This document shows, in pieces, positions 5,525-17,706 of a stretch of DNA of 43,272 bases. The position numbers and the translations under genes are program-made. Positions within the stretch are counted from its first letter, which is position 1. Each line of letters starts with the position of its first letter. Source of the stretch: Candidatus Accumulibacter regalis (GTDB lineage Bacteria; Pseudomonadota; Gammaproteobacteria; Burkholderiales; Rhodocyclaceae); assembly GCA_000585075.1 (NCBI GenBank), contig JEMY01000070.1, positions 1 to 43,272 on the forward strand, written 5' to 3'. A model generated the notes under the pieces. The model worked only from the letters and a program-made list of their open reading frames with translations. It was not told the origin of the DNA and made no database searches.

Positions 5525-7969
5525 ATGGGTTATCTGGTGTTCGCGCTGATATGTGCGCTCATTGCAGTAGGTTACGGCGCTGCAATGACCAAATGGATTC
5601 TCGGCTTGCCAGCCGGCAATCCGAAAATGCAGGAGATTGCCAAAGCCATTCAGGAGGGCGCTTCTGCTTATCTCAACAAGCAGTACACCACCATCGGCGT
5701 CGTCGGTGCGGTTCTTTTCGTGGTCATCTGGCTGGCACTCGGCAAGCTCATGGCCATCGGCTTCCTGATCGGCGCCGTCCTCTCGGGGGCCACCGGCTTC
5801 ATCGGCATGAACGTTTCGGTCCGCGCCAACGTGCGCACCGCCGAAGCGGCGCGCAACGGCATTGCCCCGGCGCTGGACGTCGCCTTCAAGGGGGGTGCCA
5901 TCACCGGCATGCTCGTCGTCGGTCTGGGTCTGCTCGGTGTTGCCGGCTACTACGCCATCCTCCGAGACCCGAGCGGCGACCTGCACCACGCAGTAGAACC
6001 GCTGATTGGTCTGGCCTTCGGCGGCTCGCTGATCTCGATCTTTGCCCGCCTGGGTGGCGGCATCTTCACCAAGGGAGCGGACGTCGGTGCCGACCTGGTC
6101 GGCAAGGTCGAAGCGGGAATCCCGGAAGACGACCCACGTAACCCGGCGGTCATCGCCGACAACGTCGGTGACAACGTCGGCGACTGTGCGGGTATGGCTG
6201 CCGACCTCTTCGAGACCTACGGTGTGACCGTGGTGGCGACGATGGTGCTTGGCGCAATGATGCTCAAGGGCGTCCCTGGCGCCAGCGACAACCTGATCAT
6301 CTACCCGCTGGTCCTGGGGGGGGTTTCGATCATTGCCTCGATCGTTGGCTGCTTCTTCGTCAAAGCCAGTGATGGCGGCAAGATCATGAATGCGCTCTAC
6401 CGCGGCCTGGCCGTCGCCGGCGCGCTGGCTCTGGTCGCCTTCTACCCGGTGACCATCATGCTGCTCGGCGACGGAATAACGCTCGCTGACGGCAGGCTGA
6501 TCAGCTCGGGGAGCATCTTCGGGGCGGCGACCATCGGTCTGATACTGACCGGCCTGCTGGTGTGGATCACCGAGTATTACACCGCGACCGAGTTCTCGCC
6601 GGTCAGGAGTGTTGCCCAGGCTTCGACCACCGGTCACGGCACGAACATCATCGCCGGTCTCGCCGTCTCGATGAAATCGTGTGCCCTGCCGGTACTCTCC
6701 GTTTGCGCGGCGATCTACGTCACCCATGCGCTGGCCGGCCTTTACGGCATCGCCATCGCGGCGACCGCGATGCTGTCGATGTCCGGGATCATCGTTGCCC
6801 TCGACGCCTATGGGCCGATTACCGACAACGCTGGCGGTATCGCCGAAATGGCCGGTTTGCCGGCGTCGGTGCGTGATGTCACCGACCCGCTCGACGCGGT
6901 TGGCAATACCACCAAGGCGGTGACCAAAGGCTACGCCATCGGCTCCGCCGGTCTGGCCGCGCTGGTCCTGTTTGCCGACTACACGCACGCCCTCGAAGCC
7001 AACTTCGGCGGCAGCATGCGTTTCGATCTCTCGAATCACATGGTGATCATCGGCCTCTTCCTTGGCGGTCTGATTCCCTACCTCTTCGCTGCCATGGCGA
7101 TGGAGGCCGTGGGTCGTGCTGCCGGTTCCGTCGTCGTCGAAGTGCGCCGGCAGTTCAAGGAGATCAAGGGCATCATGGAAGGCAAGGCGAAGCCGGATTA
7201 CTCCCGCGCCGTCGGCATGCTGACCGCTGCAGCGATCCGCGAAATGATCATCCCCTCGCTGCTGCCTGTACTGGTGCCGGTGCTCGTTGGCCTGCTGCTT
7301 GGCCCGCAGGCGCTCGGCGGCCTGCTGATGGGAACGATCATCACCGGTCTCTTCGTCGCCATCTCGATGACCACCGGTGGTGGTGCCTGGGATAACGCCA
7401 AGAAGCACATCGAGGACGGTCACTTCGGCGGCAAAGGCTCGGAAGCGCACAAGGCTTCGGTGACCGGAGATACCGTTGGCGACCCGTACAAGGACACGGC
7501 CGGTCCGGCGATCAACCCGCTGATCAAGATCATCAACATCGTGGCCCTGATGATCGTGCCCTTGATGGTCCCTGCCGCAGGCGCCAAGCCGATGCCGGCG
7601 GCGCAAGCTCCGGCTGCCGCTCCGGCTGCCGTTCCAGCTACGGCGATGGCCGCCGCGCTGCCAATGGCCACGGTCTACTTCGAAGTCGGCTCGGCCGAAC
7701 TTCCGGCTGATGTCGCGACGACGCTTGAAGGCATCGTCGTCTATGCCAAGGCCAATGCCGGCGCCAGGCTCGGTATTTCGGGCTTCCACGATGCCACTGG
7801 CAGTGCGGAAGCCAACGCCGAGGTTTCGAAGAACCGTGCCCTCGCTGTCGCTGAGGCGCTGAAAATGGTCGGAATCGCCGAAGAGCGTATCGAGCTGAAG
7901 AAGCCCGAGTTGACCACCGGCACCGGCGACGGCGCCGAGGCGCGTCGCGTCGAGGTCAGTGTGATGTAG
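5525..7969 (+). CDS. hppA: Membrane-bound proton-translocating pyrophosphatase with C-terminal OmpA-like domain
   Basis: Couples pyrophosphate hydrolysis to ion export across the inner membrane. About sixteen hydrophobic helices span residues 1-690. The substrate signature [11 protein letters not shown] is at about 186-196, followed by the acidic [20 protein letters not shown] segment. GNTTKA at 460-465 has Lys464, the mark of K+-independent proton pumps (K+-dependent ones have Ala there). After the last helix an Ala/Pro-rich linker (about 680-712) leads to an OmpA-type domain (715-814). In it Asp756 (GFHDATG) and Arg771 (SKNRA) are 15 residues apart, like the peptidoglycan-binding Asp271/Arg286 of OmpA, and it ends RRVEVSV. 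Typical pumps have 660-720 residues. ATG 5525 is chosen because GGAGG lies 6 nt upstream; an upstream TTG at 5519 abuts the ribosome site. Confidence 0.93.
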
Positions 7970-8020: not shown

Positions 8021-8063
8021 AAAAAAAAAACGAACGGGCCGTCATGCGGCCCGTTCGTTTTTT
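8021..8063. terminator. Bidirectional intrinsic terminator
   Basis: A ten-base A run (8021-8030) is followed by a perfect 10-bp stem: CGAACGGGCC at 8031-8040, loop GTCATGC, GGCCCGTTCG at 8048-8057. Six T residues follow (8058-8063). The A and T tracts let it act from both sides, ending hppA (plus) and the convergent YbhB-like gene (minus). Confidence 0.92.
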
Positions 8064-8134
8064 ACGCGTGCGCCCGATCGGTCGCCAGGGCGCAGCCAGT
8101 TGCCTCTGCGCTGGCTGCCGCCATGCGGGCGACT

Positions 8135-11247: not shown

Positions 11248-14200
11248 TTAGTCTAACATTCCGCGGCGACGCTGGAGAACAATGATCGCCATGGCGATGG
11301 TCAGCAGCAGCAGAGTGCCGGGTTCCGGAATCTGGTTGCCGCCGCCCGCCTGTACCCGAGCCTGGACGGTGAGCCGGATGTCCTGGAAGGCGGCGCTGTA
11401 GCCGCTGCCATTGTGACCGACGGCCGAGAGTACGATGGTGTCGCTGAAGCTGCCGACATTCAGGGCATCGAACGCAATCTCGAGGCCGACTTGCGCTTCA
11501 CCGGCGCGCAGATCGGCAAAGGAAGCGAAGCCGCTCTTCAGGAACTCGTTGAGCGCGAAGCTGTAAGCGCCATCGAGCAGGTCGGCCGGGCCGACGACGT
11601 CGTTGGCCAGTTGCAGCAAGGCGCTGACCATGCCGCTGCCCGCGGTGAGCGTGCCGAAGTCGAGCAGGAAATCAAAGCCGCTGCCGCCCAGCGAGCCCGC
11701 CCCCGAGGTCTTCGAGAAGGTCGGCTTGGCGTAGTTGTTGACCTGCGCCTGCAGGGTGAGCGCGGTGTCGCCGAGGCCAAGGTCGGCCATGTCCGGGTTG
11801 TGGCTGGCAAACTGCAGCCGGTCACCGCCCTGGGTAAACACCCCGGCGCTGGTCGTGTCGAGGCTGACCAGCAGGCTGCTGGCGTCGGTCTGTCCGGCGG
11901 CCAGGCCGCTGACGCTGCCACTGCCGCCGAAGGGACCGACGGGCATGTTGATGAAGCTGCCCTGCAGCGTATCGTTGAGGGCCGCCACCGGCGCGCTGTT
12001 GGTGACCGAGATGTTCTTCGCCGCAACGACGTCGCCTTTGTGGACGATCCCGAAGTCGACCAGCACCGTATTCACCTGCGCGACGGCCTTCTCGTACACC
12101 CTGCCGGCCAGGCTGACTACTTGGCTGCCGACTGAAATGTCGGCCGCACCGGTGGTGCCGGCCCCGGTCGATGCGAAGTTCACTTCCGCGCTGCCGGCGA
12201 CGTTGCCGGCCGAGCTGGTGTTCAACGCAATCTGCAGGCTGCTGGCGTCTGTGCCTTGCGCTGCCAGGTTGGCGATGGCGCCGCTAGCCGAGAAACCGCC
12301 AGCCAGCGTGCCGAAGCCGGCCTTGAGCCCTTCGGTGAAGCTGTCCGGACTGGCGTTGGTGACGCTGATCGCCGCCATCGGTGCCGCGTCGCCGCGACGT
12401 GCCACGAGGGTGACGTCGGTAGTGTTCAGGGTCGGGTTGGCCAGCCGATAGACGTCACCGCTGACGTTGACCGTCTGCGGCGCGAGATTCGTCGTTCCCA
12501 GGCCGCTGGTGCCGTCACCGTCGGAGACCAGCGCGATCGTTGCGCTGCCGCTCTTGGCGCCGGCGCTGCTGGTATCGATGCCGACACGCAGGTCGCTGCC
12601 GTTGGTCGCCTGGGCGGCGAGCAGATTGAAGGCGCCGCTGGCGGTGACTGGCGCGCCGTTGGAGCTGATGCTGGCGTTGAGCTTTTCGGAGAAGCCGTCG
12701 TTGGCCGCCGTGTTGGTGATGCTCAAGGTCTGCTCGGCCGTGCTGCCGATGCGCAGAGCACCGAAGTTGACCGGGTTGGGAGTCGCCGGGCTGGCGCTGG
12801 CCAGGCGGAAGACACTGCCGCTGGTGGTGATGTCGCCACTGACGCCGATCGTCTGCGACGCCAGCGCGGTGATGCCCAGACCGCTGGTGCCGGCGCCGTC
12901 GGAAGCAAAGTTGATCACCTGCGTGCCGTTGACGTTGCCCGCGGCGGTCGTGTTCAGGCCGACGAGCATGCTGCTGCTGTTGGTCGCCTGTGCCGCCAGT
13001 TGGCTGATGCTGCCGCTGGTCGTGATGCGCGCGTCCGAGCTGGCGCCGAAGCTGGCGTTGAGTTTTTCCGAGAAGCCGTCGGCGAGCGCCGTATTGCTGA
13101 TGCTCAGCGCCTGCTGGACGAAGTCGCCGACGTGTACGTTGCCGAAGGCAACGGCGCCGAGGTTGTTGGCCGACGCCAGGCGGTAGACGTCGCCGCTGAC
13201 GTTGATCGTCTGGCTGCCTGCGGCAATCGCCGCCAGGCCGCTGCTGCCGGTACCGTCGGAGACGTAGCTGATCGTCGCGCTGCCGCTCTTGGCGCCGGCG
13301 CTGCTGGTATCGATGCCGACCTGCAGGCTGCTGCTGTTGGTCGCCTGTGCCGCGAGCAGGTTGACGCTGCCGCTGGCGGTGGCCGGACCGCCGTTGGAGC
13401 TGATGCTGGCGTTGAGCTTTTCGGAGAAGCCATCGGCGGCGGCGGTGTTCTGCACCGTCAGCAGCTGACTCGCGGAATCGCCGACGTGGCGGTTGGCGAA
13501 GACGATTGGCGTCGGGTTGGCTGCGCCGGCCGCCAGGCGGTAGACGTCGCCCGAGACGGTGAGCACCTGACTGCCGACGCTGGCTGCGACCAGTCCATTG
13601 CTGACGCCATTGACCTTGCCCGCGGTCTCGTAGGCGAGCGTCACGGTGCCGCTCTTGGCGCCTGCGGTGCTCGTGTCGAGGCCGCCGACCGTGATCGAGC
13701 CGCTGCCCGTGTTGCTGGTGCCGGCAAGCCGCCCGGTGATGGTGCCGCTGCCGGTAGCGCCGCTTGATCCCCCGACGCTGACGTTGAGGTCTTCGCTGAA
13801 GGCACCCGCCGCCGCTGTGTTGCTGACCGTCACCGTGGCCGTGTTGCTGCCGCCCACGCGCTGGTTGGCCACCAGCACCGGTGAGCCGGCGCTGCCGACG
13901 GCCGCGTTGTAGGCCGCAGCATTGCTGGCCAGCACGATGTTCAGCTTCTGGTCGGGGATATTCTCGAAATTGCTGCGCAGGTTGAGGACCTGGCCGCTGA
14001 GCGGTGCGAGAGCGCCGGCGCTGGCTGCGCTGAAGGTCACGCCGAGGTTGCCGGTGTTGTTGCCCGGCGCGCCGGTGTTGTAGTTGCCGGCCGTGACACC
14101 GCTGCCACCGAGGCGTGCATCGCTCAGATTGGCGCCGTTGACGCTGGTCTGGACGGCGCCGCGCAGCGCCGGGCCGGTGGTGCCGTTGTTGGCGATCTGG

Positions 14201-17200
14201 TAGTTGAAGGTGGTGTCACCGACGCGCACGTTGTTGATCGTCAGTGTCGCGTTGGTGGTGGCGCCGTTGCTCACGCCGGCGCCGGTGATCACCTGCGCGA
14301 CATCGCCACCGGCGACGATCTGGCCGAGCCCGGAAACGCCGGCGCGGCGGTTGAAGGCGTTGCCTGCGCCGGCGGCGACGTTGGTGTAGTCGGTGTTGAT
14401 GGTCAGGTTCTGGGTGCCGATGTTGAGCGTCGATCCGGCAGCACCCATGACCAGCCGGCCCTGCGTGTTCGCGGCGTTGGTCAGGTTCATCACGCCGCTC
14501 GCATCGACTTGCAGCGTGCCGCTACCGGTGACGCCGTTGTCGATCGTCAGCGTCCCGTTTTGCGCACGCAGGGTGCCATGGTTGGTCAGCGTGCCATCGG
14601 TATTGACTCGGATCAGGCCACCGCCGTCTGAATTGATCGTGCCGTTGTTCACCAGCGTGTGTGTGCCGCCGATATTGATCTGGCCACCGATATTGCCATT
14701 CTCGCCGCGGATGGTGACGTTCGAGCCGATGGTGCTCGTGCCGTTGCCATCCAGGTCCAGGCGGTTGCCGGCGCCGGTGTTGCCGAAGACGATCGAGCCA
14801 TTTCCGGCGAGTGCCTGTCCGCCCTCGAGGCTGAGTATGCCATTGTTGTTGATGTTGACCGTACCATTGACCGTCAGGCCATTGACTGCGCGCTCGCGGC
14901 TGTTGACGAGGGTGGCCATGTCCAGCGTGCCGCCGATCGTCGTTGCATCGAGATAGTTGCTGGCACTGCTGGTGACCCGGAAGACGCCACCGTTGACTGA
15001 ATTGATCGCTCCGCCGGTGACCCGTTGTGTCGACTGGAGAACGACACCGTTGTCGGCGAGGATCACGCCGCTGGCGGTGTTGTTGACGTTGCTGTTCAGG
15101 TTCAGGGTGCCACCGTTGCGTGCTTCCAGGACGCTGTTGTTGGTCACCGCCGAGTCGGTGATGGTGATCGTTCCGCCAGCGACATCGGCGGAGATCCTGC
15201 CGTTGTTGAGCAGCGTCTGCGTGCCGCCGATATTGATCTGGGCGCCGATGGTGCCGTTCTCGCCGCGGATGGTGACGTTCGTGCCGACGGTGGTGGTGCC
15301 GTTGCTATCGAGGTCGACCCGGTTGCCCGGACCCGTGGCCCCGAGCACGATGCTGCCGTTGCCATCGAGGGTGCCGTTACCCTCGAAGCTGAGGATGCCG
15401 TTGTTGTTGATGTCAATGGTGCCGTTGAGCGTCAGGCCGCCCCCAATGACGCGTTCGCGGGCGTTGGTGGCGGTGAGGTCGAGGTTGCCGTTCAGGGTGA
15501 CGCCGCTGAGGTAGTTGGCAGCGCTGCTGCTGGCGCGGAAGATGCCGCTCCCCGAGGTATTGACCGTGCCGCTGATCACCACGCCGCTCTGCTGCACGGT
15601 GCTGCCGGCACCGGCGACGATCTGGCCGCTGGCACCGCCGGCGACGTTGCTCGACAGGAGCAGGGTGCCACCGTTACTGGCTTCCAGGATGCCGTTGTTG
15701 GTCACCGCCGAGGTGGTGATGTTGATCGTTCCGCCAGCGACATCGGCGGAGATCCTGCCGTTGTTGACCAGCAGTTGCGTGCCGCCGATATTGATCGCGC
15801 TGCCGATGGTGCCGTTCTCGCCGCGGATGGCGATGTTCGACCCGACGGTGGTGGTGCCGTTGCCGTCGAGGGCGACGCGGTTGCCCGAACCGGTGGCCCC
15901 GAGCACGATGCTGCCGTTGCCATCGAGGGCGCTGTTGCCCTCGAAGCTGAGGACGGCGTTGCTATCGATGTCGATCCTGCCGTTGAGCGTCAGGCCGCCC
16001 CCAACGACGCGTTCGCGAGCGTTGGTGGCGGTGAGGTCGAGGTTGCCGTTCAGGGTGACGCCGCTGAGGTAGTTGGTAGCGCTGCTGCTGGCGCGGAAGA
16101 CGCCGCTCCCCGAGGTATTGACCGTGCCGCTGATCACCACGCCGCTCTGTTGCACGGTGCTGCCGGCACCGGCGACGATCTGGCCGCCGGCACCGCCGGC
16201 GACGTTGCTGGTCAGGAGCAGGGTGCCCCCGTTCTTGGCTTCCAGGATGCCGTTGTTGGTCACCGCCGAGTCGGTGATGGTGATCGTTCCGCCAGCGACA
16301 TCGGCGGAGATCCTGCCGTTGTTGACCAGCGTCTGCGTGCCGCCGATATTGATCTGGCCACCGATGGTGCCATTCTCGCCGCGAATCGTGACGTTCGTGC
16401 CGACGGTGGTGGTTCCGTTGCCGTCGAGGTCCACGCGGTTGCCCGAACCGGTGGCCCCGAGCACGATGCTGCCGTTGCCACTCAGGGCGCCGTCGCCCTC
16501 GAAGCTGAGAATGCCGTTGTTGTTGATGTCTATGGTGCCGTTGAGCGTCAGGCCGCCCCCAACGACGCGTTCGCGGGCGTTGGTGGCGGTGAGGTCGAGG
16601 TTGCCGTTCAGGGTGACGCCGCTGAGGTAGTTGGCAGCGCTGCTGTTGGCGCGGAAGACGCCGCTCCCCGAGGTATTGACCGTTCCGCTGATCACCACGC
16701 CGCTCTGCTGCACGGTGCTGCCGGCGCCGGCGACGATCTGGCCGCTGGCACCGCCGGCGACGTTGCTGGACAGGAGCAGGGTGCCACCGTTCTTGGCTTC
16801 CAGGATGCCGTTGTTGGTCACCGCCGAGTCGGTGATGGTGATCGTTCCGCCAGCGACATCGGCGGAGATCCTGCCGTTGTTGACCAGCGTCTGCGTGCCG
16901 CCGATGTTGATCTGGTTGCCGATGGTGCCGTTCTCGCCGCGGATGGTGATGTTCGACCCGACGGTGGTCGTTCCGGTGCCGTCGAGGTCCACGCGGTTGC
17001 CCGGACCGGTGGTCCCAAGCACGATGCTGCCGTTGCCACTCAGGGCGCCGTCGCCCTCGAAGCTGAGGATGCCGTTGTTGTTGATGTCAATGGTGCCGTT
17101 GAGCGTCAGGCCGCCACCAATGACTCGTTCCCGGGCGTTGGTGTTGGTCATGTCGAGGTTGCCGTTCAGGGTGACGCCGCTCAGGTAGTTGGAAGGGCTA

Positions 17201-17706
17201 CTGAATGCCACCAGCGCGCCGCTACCCGTTGTGCCGATAATGCCGCCGGTGATGGTGCTGCCGAACTGGTTGACGACGCTGCCGTCATCGATGTTGATCG
17301 TGCCGCCGGTGTTGTTGATGTTGTGGCCGACGGAGACGCCAATATTGGCCGTCGAGGCGCCGCCGACGTTGATGACGCCGCTGTTGGTGGTGCCGCCACC
17401 ACCGACGAGGTTGAGGCCGAAGGCGTCGATGTTGATCTGGCCGGCGTTGTTCAGCGTCCGAATCGACTGCCCGGTGTTGATCGTGACCACGCCCGCGGCG
17501 CCGATATTGGCGGTGTCGCTGCTGCCGGGCGTGGTCGCCGGATTACCATTGCCCGCGCCGCAGGTCAACCAGTCGGAGGGCGTCGCCCAGTTGCCGGCGG
17601 TAACGTTCCAGGTGCAGGTGACCGCGAGGGCTTGCTGTGCGGGGAAGGCGAGAAGAATGGCAAGAAGGGCTGGCTTGACTGTCGAAAGCGGGTGATTGGC
17701 GCGCAT
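11248..17706 (-). CDS. Giant repeat-rich secreted protein with PEP-CTERM sorting signal
   Basis: A 2152-residue exported protein, probably a surface or matrix protein. A signal peptide spans residues 1-28 (ending FPAQQALA). A short cysteine-containing start (VTCTWNVTAGNWATPSDWLTC) is followed by a Gly/Asn/Thr-rich beta-helix-like region. Within it are four 186-residue repeats (about residues 174-917) and a degenerate fifth, built on motifs such as YLSGVTLNGNLD, LTLNGTIDINNNGILSFEG and TIRGENGTIG. About residues 1150-2050 hold several copies of another module (VYRLA...FGNVHVGD...SISNTA...DGFSEKLNASI) that resembles HYDIN/ASPM-like 'choice-of-anchor D' Ig-type repeats. The C-terminus is a PEP-CTERM signal: IPEPGTLLLLTIAMAIIVLQ then RRR, which an exosortase would cleave. 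AGAGGAGACACCC precedes the ATG, and a sigma-54-type promoter lies upstream. No two-partner secretion domain is seen. Confidence 0.9.
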   Translation of the reverse strand: MRANHPLSTVKPALLAILLAFPAQQALAVTCTWNVTAGNWATPSDWLTCGAGNGNPATTPGSSDTANIGAAGVVTINTGQSIRTLNNAGQINIDAFGLNLVGGGGTTNSGVINVGGASTANIGVSVGHNINNTGGTINIDDGSVVNQFGSTITGGIIGTTGSGALVAFSSPSNYLSGVTLNGNLDMTNTNARERVIGGGLTLNGTIDINNNGILSFEGDGALSGNGSIVLGTTGPGNRVDLDGTGTTTVGSNITIRGENGTIGNQINIGGTQTLVNNGRISADVAGGTITITDSAVTNNGILEAKNGGTLLLSSNVAGGASGQIVAGAGSTVQQSGVVISGTVNTSGSGVFRANSSAANYLSGVTLNGNLDLTATNARERVVGGGLTLNGTIDINNNGILSFEGDGALSGNGSIVLGATGSGNRVDLDGNGTTTVGTNVTIRGENGTIGGQINIGGTQTLVNNGRISADVAGGTITITDSAVTNNGILEAKNGGTLLLTSNVAGGAGGQIVAGAGSTVQQSGVVISGTVNTSGSGVFRASSSATNYLSGVTLNGNLDLTATNARERVVGGGLTLNGRIDIDSNAVLSFEGNSALDGNGSIVLGATGSGNRVALDGNGTTTVGSNIAIRGENGTIGSAINIGGTQLLVNNGRISADVAGGTINITTSAVTNNGILEASNGGTLLLSSNVAGGASGQIVAGAGSTVQQSGVVISGTVNTSGSGIFRASSSAANYLSGVTLNGNLDLTATNARERVIGGGLTLNGTIDINNNGILSFEGNGTLDGNGSIVLGATGPGNRVDLDSNGTTTVGTNVTIRGENGTIGAQINIGGTQTLLNNGRISADVAGGTITITDSAVTNNSVLEARNGGTLNLNSNVNNTASGVILADNGVVLQSTQRVTGGAINSVNGGVFRVTSSASNYLDATTIGGTLDMATLVNSRERAVNGLTVNGTVNINNNGILSLEGGQALAGNGSIVFGNTGAGNRLDLDGNGTSTIGSNVTIRGENGNIGGQINIGGTHTLVNNGTINSDGGGLIRVNTDGTLTNHGTLRAQNGTLTIDNGVTGSGTLQVDASGVMNLTNAANTQGRLVMGAAGSTLNIGTQNLTINTDYTNVAAGAGNAFNRRAGVSGLGQIVAGGDVAQVITGAGVSNGATTNATLTINNVRVGDTTFNYQIANNGTTGPALRGAVQTSVNGANLSDARLGGSGVTAGNYNTGAPGNNTGNLGVTFSAASAGALAPLSGQVLNLRSNFENIPDQKLNIVLASNAAAYNAAVGSAGSPVLVANQRVGGSNTATVTVSNTAAAGAFSEDLNVSVGGSSGATGSGTITGRLAGTSNTGSGSITVGGLDTSTAGAKSGTVTLAYETAGKVNGVSNGLVAASVGSQVLTVSGDVYRLAAGAANPTPIVFANRHVGDSASQLLTVQNTAAADGFSEKLNASISSNGGPATASGSVNLLAAQATNSSSLQVGIDTSSAGAKSGSATISYVSDGTGSSGLAAIAAGSQTINVSGDVYRLASANNLGAVAFGNVHVGDFVQQALSISNTALADGFSEKLNASFGASSDARITTSGSISQLAAQATNSSSMLVGLNTTAAGNVNGTQVINFASDGAGTSGLGITALASQTIGVSGDITTSGSVFRLASASPATPNPVNFGALRIGSTAEQTLSITNTAANDGFSEKLNASISSNGAPVTASGAFNLLAAQATNGSDLRVGIDTSSAGAKSGSATIALVSDGDGTSGLGTTNLAPQTVNVSGDVYRLANPTLNTTDVTLVARRGDAAPMAAISVTNASPDSFTEGLKAGFGTLAGGFSASGAIANLAAQGTDASSLQIALNTSSAGNVAGSAEVNFASTGAGTTGAADISVGSQVVSLAGRVYEKAVAQVNTVLVDFGIVHKGDVVAAKNISVTNSAPVAALNDTLQGSFINMPVGPFGGSGSVSGLAAGQTDASSLLVSLDTTSAGVFTQGGDRLQFASHNPDMADLGLGDTALTLQAQVNNYAKPTFSKTSGAGSLGGSGFDFLLDFGTLTAGSGMVSALLQLANDVVGPADLLDGAYSFALNEFLKSGFASFADLRAGEAQVGLEIAFDALNVGSFSDTIVLSAVGHNGSGYSAAFQDIRLTVQARVQAGGGNQIPEPGTLLLLTIAMAIIVLQRRRGMLD
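14957..17188 (-). repeat. Four 558-bp tandem repeats inside the PEP-CTERM gene
   Basis: Unit starts fall at exactly 558-bp spacing (14957, 15515, 16073, 16631 on plus coordinates), each coding 186 residues in frame. Long stretches are identical: positions 16261-16346 and 16819-16904 match base for base over about 86 nt. A fifth, diverged copy runs on to about 14560. High identity between neighbouring units points to recent duplication or gene conversion. Confidence 0.93.

Follow-up and report, generated by a model that had tools for sequence, protein, structure and literature searches.

The gene at positions 5525-7969 (+) of the window, the 43,272-nucleotide contig of Candidatus Accumulibacter regalis that was analysed as a whole, raises the question of why a pyrophosphate-driven proton pump should end in an OmpA-like domain. 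The initial annotation had proposed such a fusion, and the gene indeed consists of a single uninterrupted frame with an ATG at 5525 and a stop at 7969 (814 amino acids plus stop), preceded by a ribosome-binding-like GGGAGG 6 bases upstream of the ATG. On the forward strand, the H+-translocating pyrophosphatase (H+-PPase) module occupies positions 5525-7573 (residues 1-683), an Ala/Pro-rich linker positions 7574-7663 (about residues 684-713) and the OmpA-like domain positions 7664-7966 (residues 714-814). Pfam searches matched the H_PPase family (PF03030) to residues 12-677 over the whole profile (1-645 of 645, 894 bits) and OmpA to residues 718-791 (profile 1-76 of 98) with 44.1 bits, compared to a curated cut-off of 27.2. 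Both domains exceed their curated cut-offs within one open frame, and the fusion is real. In NCBIfam, PPase models scored best and OmpA-type lipoproteins came next, with much lower scores. A terminator-like hairpin followed by a T run was recognized by eye at 8029-8064 (+); it was not listed by the pattern scan, which may have missed it since the stem continues into the T stretch. The promoter scan yielded no site.

An assembly error or a frameshift at the linker, which had been named as one of the findings that would refute the fusion, is ruled out, as none of the 10 pumps of the Ca. Accumulibacter clade, which come from separate assemblies, has an interrupted frame. A relative that ends at a contig edge before the linker (L033) stands outside this count. 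The fused frame is also present in a single-contig genome of the same genus (G018, L245) and in further single-contig genomes of the order (G156, G406), and the joining of two genes by misassembly was thus rejected. The nearest named relatives are Ca. Accumulibacter genomes, with pump identities of up to 95%. The window genome (G000) consists of 85 contigs, another of which carries a second, divergent membrane PPase (L002, G000:C36, 936-3065); this 844-amino-acid frame scores 587 bits against PF03030, has no OmpA tail, and the GNTT motif was not found in it.

The pump module contains the GNTTKA motif with Lys464, a lysine that marks K+-independent H+-PPases. It is invariant in the 14 fused proteins that were aligned, and GNTTKA is present in 123 of the 123 pumps of the pump tree, fused and unfused alike. 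Its signature supports the initial classification of the protein as a K+-independent H+-PPase. The conserved catalytic stretches of PF03030 (41 residues) are invariant in the 14 fused rows and align with VrPPase. In phmmer alignments the pump can be followed up to residue 757 of 766 of VrPPase and up to residue 713 of 729 of the K+-insensitive pump 8b37, that is, nearly to the ends of both, and the extension therefore starts where known pumps stop.

Only one helix separates the last catalytic stretch (11 residues) from the linker. This last pump helix spans about residues 664-683 by eye, and residues 653-680 in a weak, low-confidence full-length model built from 14 rows, with a mean pLDDT of 69.3. 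In PPase structures, the catalytic site, including the last catalytic stretch, faces the cytoplasm, and both termini are on the opposite side of the membrane. No statement on the position of the PPase C-terminus was found in the papers searched for it. With a cytoplasmic catalytic stretch and a single helix before the linker, the C-terminus of the pump would be periplasmic. Independent support comes from other carriers of the same domain, described below, which bear it on periplasmic ends: the C-termini of CtaC, CcoP and PufC and the N-terminus of AmtB are all periplasmic. The periplasmic location, on which the initial annotation had made its proposal depend, is very probable in view of the alignment, the helix count and the tagged ends of these carriers.

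The linkers of 36 fused pumps are 21 to 78 residues long (median 33.5) and contain 40% Ala and 14% Pro. In the window protein, pLDDT is below 50 over residues 681-712 of the full-length model, and a 12-base repeat inside the linker (7607-7639) may explain why linker length varies. At 3.4-3.6 Å per residue, 21 residues would reach 71-76 Å and 33 residues about 115 Å. The inner membrane lies approximately 80-100 Å from the peptidoglycan, so that the shortest linkers, of 21-26 residues (10 of the 36 fused pumps; 71-94 Å at full stretch), would be tight.

The OmpA-like domain by itself was modelled from 75 related sequences with a mean pLDDT of 93.9 and a pTM of 0.87. Its predicted order is strand-helix-strand-helix-strand-short helix-strand, and its best Foldseek matches are Pal/OmpA domains, among them 3td4, a diaminopimelate complex (TMq 0.86), and 3td5, with a peptidoglycan pentapeptide (TMq 0.84). 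The description of the domain as a complete OmpA-type domain holds for the modelled fold, but the stretch between strands 3 and 4 is shorter than in canonical OmpA, which is the reason why PF00691 aligns over 1-76 of 98 only. Despite this shortened region, the domain keeps its RRVE end. It has the fold and the Asp/Arg pair in common with the domains of Pal, OmpA and YiaD; those domains, however, are found on outer-membrane proteins or lipoproteins, whereas the fusion domain sits on an inner-membrane pump.

Asp756 (codon 7790-7792, +) and Arg771 (codon 7835-7837, +) are 15 residues apart, as had been noticed, and are invariant in the first 14 fused proteins aligned; their profile columns coincide with the Asp and Arg of Pal and YiaD when solved chains of these proteins are aligned to the profile. 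Both residues are kept in 96 of the 98 domains compared (97 of the OmpA subfamily plus that of L094, some of them close relatives), a count that leans towards the motif since the search profiles contain it. The arginine alone is kept in all 98, as is the Arg807/Arg808 pair near the C-terminus of the domain, and the aspartate is replaced by Ala in one PPase (L197) and by Ser in one PufC (L199). In a 75-row alignment (A4) of 52% mean identity, from which 23 of the 98 had been removed (L197, L199, L094 and 20 domains already represented by a relative), the Asp/Arg pair is among 9 invariant columns. Within Ca. Accumulibacter, the median dN/dS (45 pairs of 10 sequences each) is 0.183 for the OmpA domain and 0.061 for the pump; the linker, for which 37 of 45 pairs could be used, has a median of 0.315, with high dS for the OmpA domain and the linker (medians above 1). 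By these ratios, the OmpA domain evolves faster than the pump within Ca. Accumulibacter, yet under purifying selection.

The window genome contains 17 OmpA matches, the fusion PPase included. Ten of the 16 other proteins were analysed with Pfam, which identified two MotB stators, both with MotB_plug, and six proteins with OmpA alone; in the fusion protein, no MotB_plug match that would indicate a MotB plug segment was found by Pfam. That the domain was derived from one of the genome's other OmpA genes is not supported, the next best match reaching 26.8 bits and 31% identity. In one protein of this genome, an OmpA match occurs together with an eCIS core domain (L124:1408-2979, -), and a DUF389 protein has a sub-threshold OmpA match (L128:1384-3204, -).

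The initial annotation knew of no description of such a fusion, which was not borne out. According to a 2024 review (PMC11210485), the H+-PPase of Paucibacter sp. KCTC 42545 ends in an OmpA-like domain; four more proteins appear in its Table 2, including an 818-residue one of a 'Betaproteobacteria bacterium'. The review describes a remote resemblance to OmpA and leaves the role to be elucidated. The pump-OmpA architecture was thus already known, and the Paucibacter protein (UniProt A0A0U2VTE8, 810 amino acids) has the same architecture as the window protein. The Asp/Arg pair, the other carriers and the repeated origin, which are treated here, are not dealt with in the text of that review available to us.

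Other carriers of this OmpA subfamily were searched for in 399 genomes of the order with a profile (A3) built from 13 fused PPase domains, scoring at most 12 candidates per genome. As the profile was built from PPase tails, the survey favours PPases. Besides the window, 82 matches with at least 82 bits were found in 58 further genomes, and the next match listed scored 72. They were sorted into H+-PPases (23), small proteins (23), CtaC, which is cytochrome c oxidase subunit II (11), the photosynthetic reaction-centre cytochrome PufC (8), DUF937 proteins (5), BON proteins (4), CcoP of the cbb3 oxidase (3), RND adaptors (3), the ammonium transporter AmtB (1) and another c-type cytochrome (1). Pfam was applied to 19 of the 59 non-PPase loci, covering nine kinds, and the other labels come from motifs and likeness; 'small protein' is the default label (23 loci with a single helix by eye), and L214, at a contig edge, was labelled PPase from its tail. 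Pfam identified COX2, cytochrome c and OmpA together in four loci, CytoC_RC with OmpA in three, FixP_N with cytochrome and OmpA in two and Ammonium_transp preceded by OmpA in one. The rest of the 19 fit their labels, BON being barely above the cut-off. In the AmtB protein (L223:3737-5668) a stretch resembling a signal peptide is followed by the OmpA domain, which is thus N-terminal. Eight genomes have a PufC that ends in an OmpA domain (L198, L199, L203, L204, L207, L209, L210 and L213; three checked with Pfam), and the alignments of L199 with solved PufC chains lie mainly upstream of the OmpA part. In L170, which was counted as CtaC, the CtaC end and the OmpA domain are in different reading frames.

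The four energy-converting kinds, H+-PPase, CtaC, CcoP and PufC, account for 45 of the 82 matches, or for 22 of 59 when the PPases are set aside. Two energy complexes are tagged in 8 of the 59 tag-bearing genomes, that of the window included (7 without L170), and the carriers are spread over many families of the order. Another 35 of the 82 matches are on proteins without known chemiosmotic role (DUF937, BON, RND adaptors and small proteins), and energy coupling is therefore not the only context of the subfamily. Around the single-helix OmpA genes, clustering of the flanking frames and Pfam analysis of 10 (5 matched) revealed no energy-related partner.

The fused PPases form one clade in neither the pump tree nor the OmpA tree. 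Twelve changes of the fused state are required in the pump tree (FastTree, 123 rows), of which starred branches force at least 9, and 13 are required on a thinned pump tree; gain, loss and transfer look alike in these counts. The tree holds 36 of the 39 fused pumps, L214 having been skipped and L239 and L242 missed by the motif filter, which also removed some unfused loci. A single clade of all fused pumps was rejected in a 59-row thinned set with hand-picked unfused rows (p-AU 2.6e-68). The OmpA tree is built on few columns and leaves many forks unresolved; the carrier changes 25 times on it, and a single clade of PPase tails is rejected (p-AU 0.0014 with L094, 0.00099 without). L094 probably arose by a separate fusion event, as its OmpA domain is canonical and full (profile 2-98, 77.7 bits) and clusters with other OmpA domains of the window genome (support 93).

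The starred Ca. Accumulibacter pump clade is fused throughout, most of its rows coming from hits ranked with the fused protein as query, and in the neighbouring clade, which contains Propionivibrio and others, some labelled Accumulibacter, 8 of 9 pumps are unfused. In the family sample, all four genomes of the window's genus are fused, as are at least 9 of the 99 PPase-bearing genomes, a count in which frames shorter than 780 residues were taken as unfused by length, in which L249, L250 and L251 were seen to lack the domain, and which does not cover five long second-type PPase frames and several pumps truncated by the end of a contig. In 12 of the 123 tree pumps, the C-terminus carries a tail of 27-65 residues (Ala+Pro 26-62%) but no OmpA domain (L046, L052, L060, L062, L070, L071, L080, L088, L096, L102, L110 and L112), downstream of which no convincing OmpA remnant was found, the best scoring 5.9 bits. 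A weak OmpA match in an 855-amino-acid frame with two internal stop codons (G429:C126:84797-85096, -) is perhaps a decayed fusion.

A profile of the pump end plus tail was run over 398 genomes of the phylum. Among the matches listed, it aligned end to end in five, namely the window, G406, G156 and G490 in the order, and G1063, which belongs to the class outside the order and was seen to be fused; in the other rows among the matches listed, the alignment covers the pump end but no more than a portion of the tail. G204 gave a partial match (1-105) in an 896-amino-acid frame. When the OmpA profile was run over 274 genomes of the class, 11 had matches at E 1e-18; one match above 100 bits lay outside the order, on a protein that is by eye not an energy complex. 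On these profile searches, the habit of OmpA tagging seems to be centred on the order.

What the domain may do for the pump can be approached from these data. The reading that we favour, with some reserve, is that it attaches to peptidoglycan and so acts as a tether between pump and sacculus. The protein would be a PPi-driven inner-membrane proton pump, itself operating like other K+-independent H+-PPases, whose C-terminus would exit the last helix on the periplasmic side. A flexible Ala/Pro tether would then lead to the OmpA-type domain, which would bind the diaminopimelate of peptidoglycan via Asp756 and Arg771, hold the pump to the sacculus and thereby limit its position and diffusion. It would be one case of a wider habit of the order, in which one OmpA subfamily has been added repeatedly to the periplasmic side of chemiosmotic complexes (H+-PPase, CtaC, CcoP and PufC). 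This reading is favoured because the fold and the residues fit, the domain is very probably on the right side of the membrane, it is kept by selection and it has repeatedly been added to proton-gradient complexes; it is also the simplest account. Our confidence is good for peptidoglycan binding as such and moderate for tethering as the physiological role. The benefit might be, as a guess, a fixed position or spacing in the plasma membrane. Evidence against it is the lability of the fused state across the pump tree and the family sample, the short linkers of some relatives, the two domains without the aspartate, the non-energy carriers and the weakness of the full-length model. A polyphosphate-specific role, to which the initial annotation alluded in mentioning polyphosphate/PHA cycling, is unlikely as a general explanation, since fused proteins are spread over many families of the order, and the polyphosphate metabolism of the organism need not be involved.

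The MotB/PomB stators are ion-translocating inner-membrane complexes anchored to peptidoglycan by an OmpA-type domain, and the fusion pump resembles them in this combination. The stators need anchoring for torque, whereas the pump is without known mechanical output, and solved MotB chains reach no more than 24-36 bits with the subfamily profile.

The domain could instead be a protein-protein docking unit, offering a Pal-like face to TolB, to an outer-membrane lipoprotein or to a partner complex, in which case pumps and oxidases would be linked to the Tol-Pal system or to each other. The close Foldseek matches include Pal from TolB/Pal complexes (2hqs, 4r40 and 2w8b), and the shortened region between strands 3 and 4 is peculiar to the subfamily. 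However, the diaminopimelate-binding Asp/Arg pair and the C-terminal Arg pair are nearly invariant over very different carriers, which have no obvious common partner, and we regard docking as unlikely. It is quite unlikely that the tail is a nearly neutral passenger, left by fusions that often arise and decay and that the pump does not need. The abundance of OmpA genes and Ala/Pro tails in these GC-rich genomes, the many changes of the fused state on the trees and the 12 of 123 pumps with tails lacking the domain would suit such a passenger, but the purifying selection on the domain, the motif kept in 96 of 98, the fusion kept in 10 of 10 Accumulibacter clade pumps and the repeated addition to a few kinds of energy complexes (22 of the 59 non-PPase matches) argue against it. 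That the tether is a sensor, through which wall tension or spacing would act on the pump via the linker and the last helix and make PPi-driven proton pumping respond to the state of the envelope, is very improbable: the linker leaves straight from the last pump helix, and the window genome has two MotB genes, whose products belong to stators that change state and bear OmpA-type domains, but a linker that is long, predicted to be disordered and variable would transmit force poorly.

A broader and more tentative proposal, somewhat less likely than not, is that the OmpA subfamily is a dedicated, portable cell-wall anchor for chemiosmotic machines, by which the proton pumps, the terminal oxidases and a photosynthetic reaction centre of the order would each have been attached to the sacculus independently, with a parallel in Gloeobacter photosystem I. 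A peptidoglycan-binding extension of Gloeobacter PsaB has reportedly been noted earlier. Like the fusion pump, Gloeobacter violaceus PsaB (7F4V) belongs to an energy complex and has a C-terminal OmpA-type tail, the deposited 872-residue chain matching the OmpA profile at 755-863 (E 6e-11); unlike it, PsaB represents another complex, another phylum and another OmpA sequence. In the paper describing the 7F4V structure (PMC9000952), PsaB is modelled as residues 3-727, and the words OmpA and peptidoglycan are absent from its main text as available to us. A scan for OmpA domains in Burkholderia (PMC2716516, 2009) met a putative cytochrome c oxidase (ORF13), which resembles the CtaC fusions of our survey in bearing an OmpA domain on an oxidase; in the part of that paper at hand, ORF13 was set aside for its annotation and not tied to other energy complexes.

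No paper connecting the OmpA fusions of H+-PPase, oxidase and reaction centre was found in the open-access literature, within which the recurrence of the domain on H+-PPase, on two kinds of oxidase and on a reaction-centre subunit looks new; the pump fusion alone is a published curiosity. This recurrence suggests that some of the energy machinery of bacteria is anchored to the cell wall. The fusion, its tail being a separable domain, bears on the question of whether bioenergetic complexes move freely in bacterial plasma membranes or are fixed in space. If the subfamily does act as an anchor, energy conversion in the plasma membrane would be held at fixed positions under the cell wall.

Two other features of the window are worth recording. 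A 2152-amino-acid open frame extends over positions 11248-17706 (-), and on its opposite strand successive open frames follow one another exactly 558 bases apart (14957, 15515, 16073, 16631 and 17189); by its sequence, the frame probably encodes a giant protein with long, similar repeats of 186 residues. Finally, short-period repeats of 39 and 78 bases are located at the contig end (43125-43272, +), and are perhaps the cause of the assembly break.
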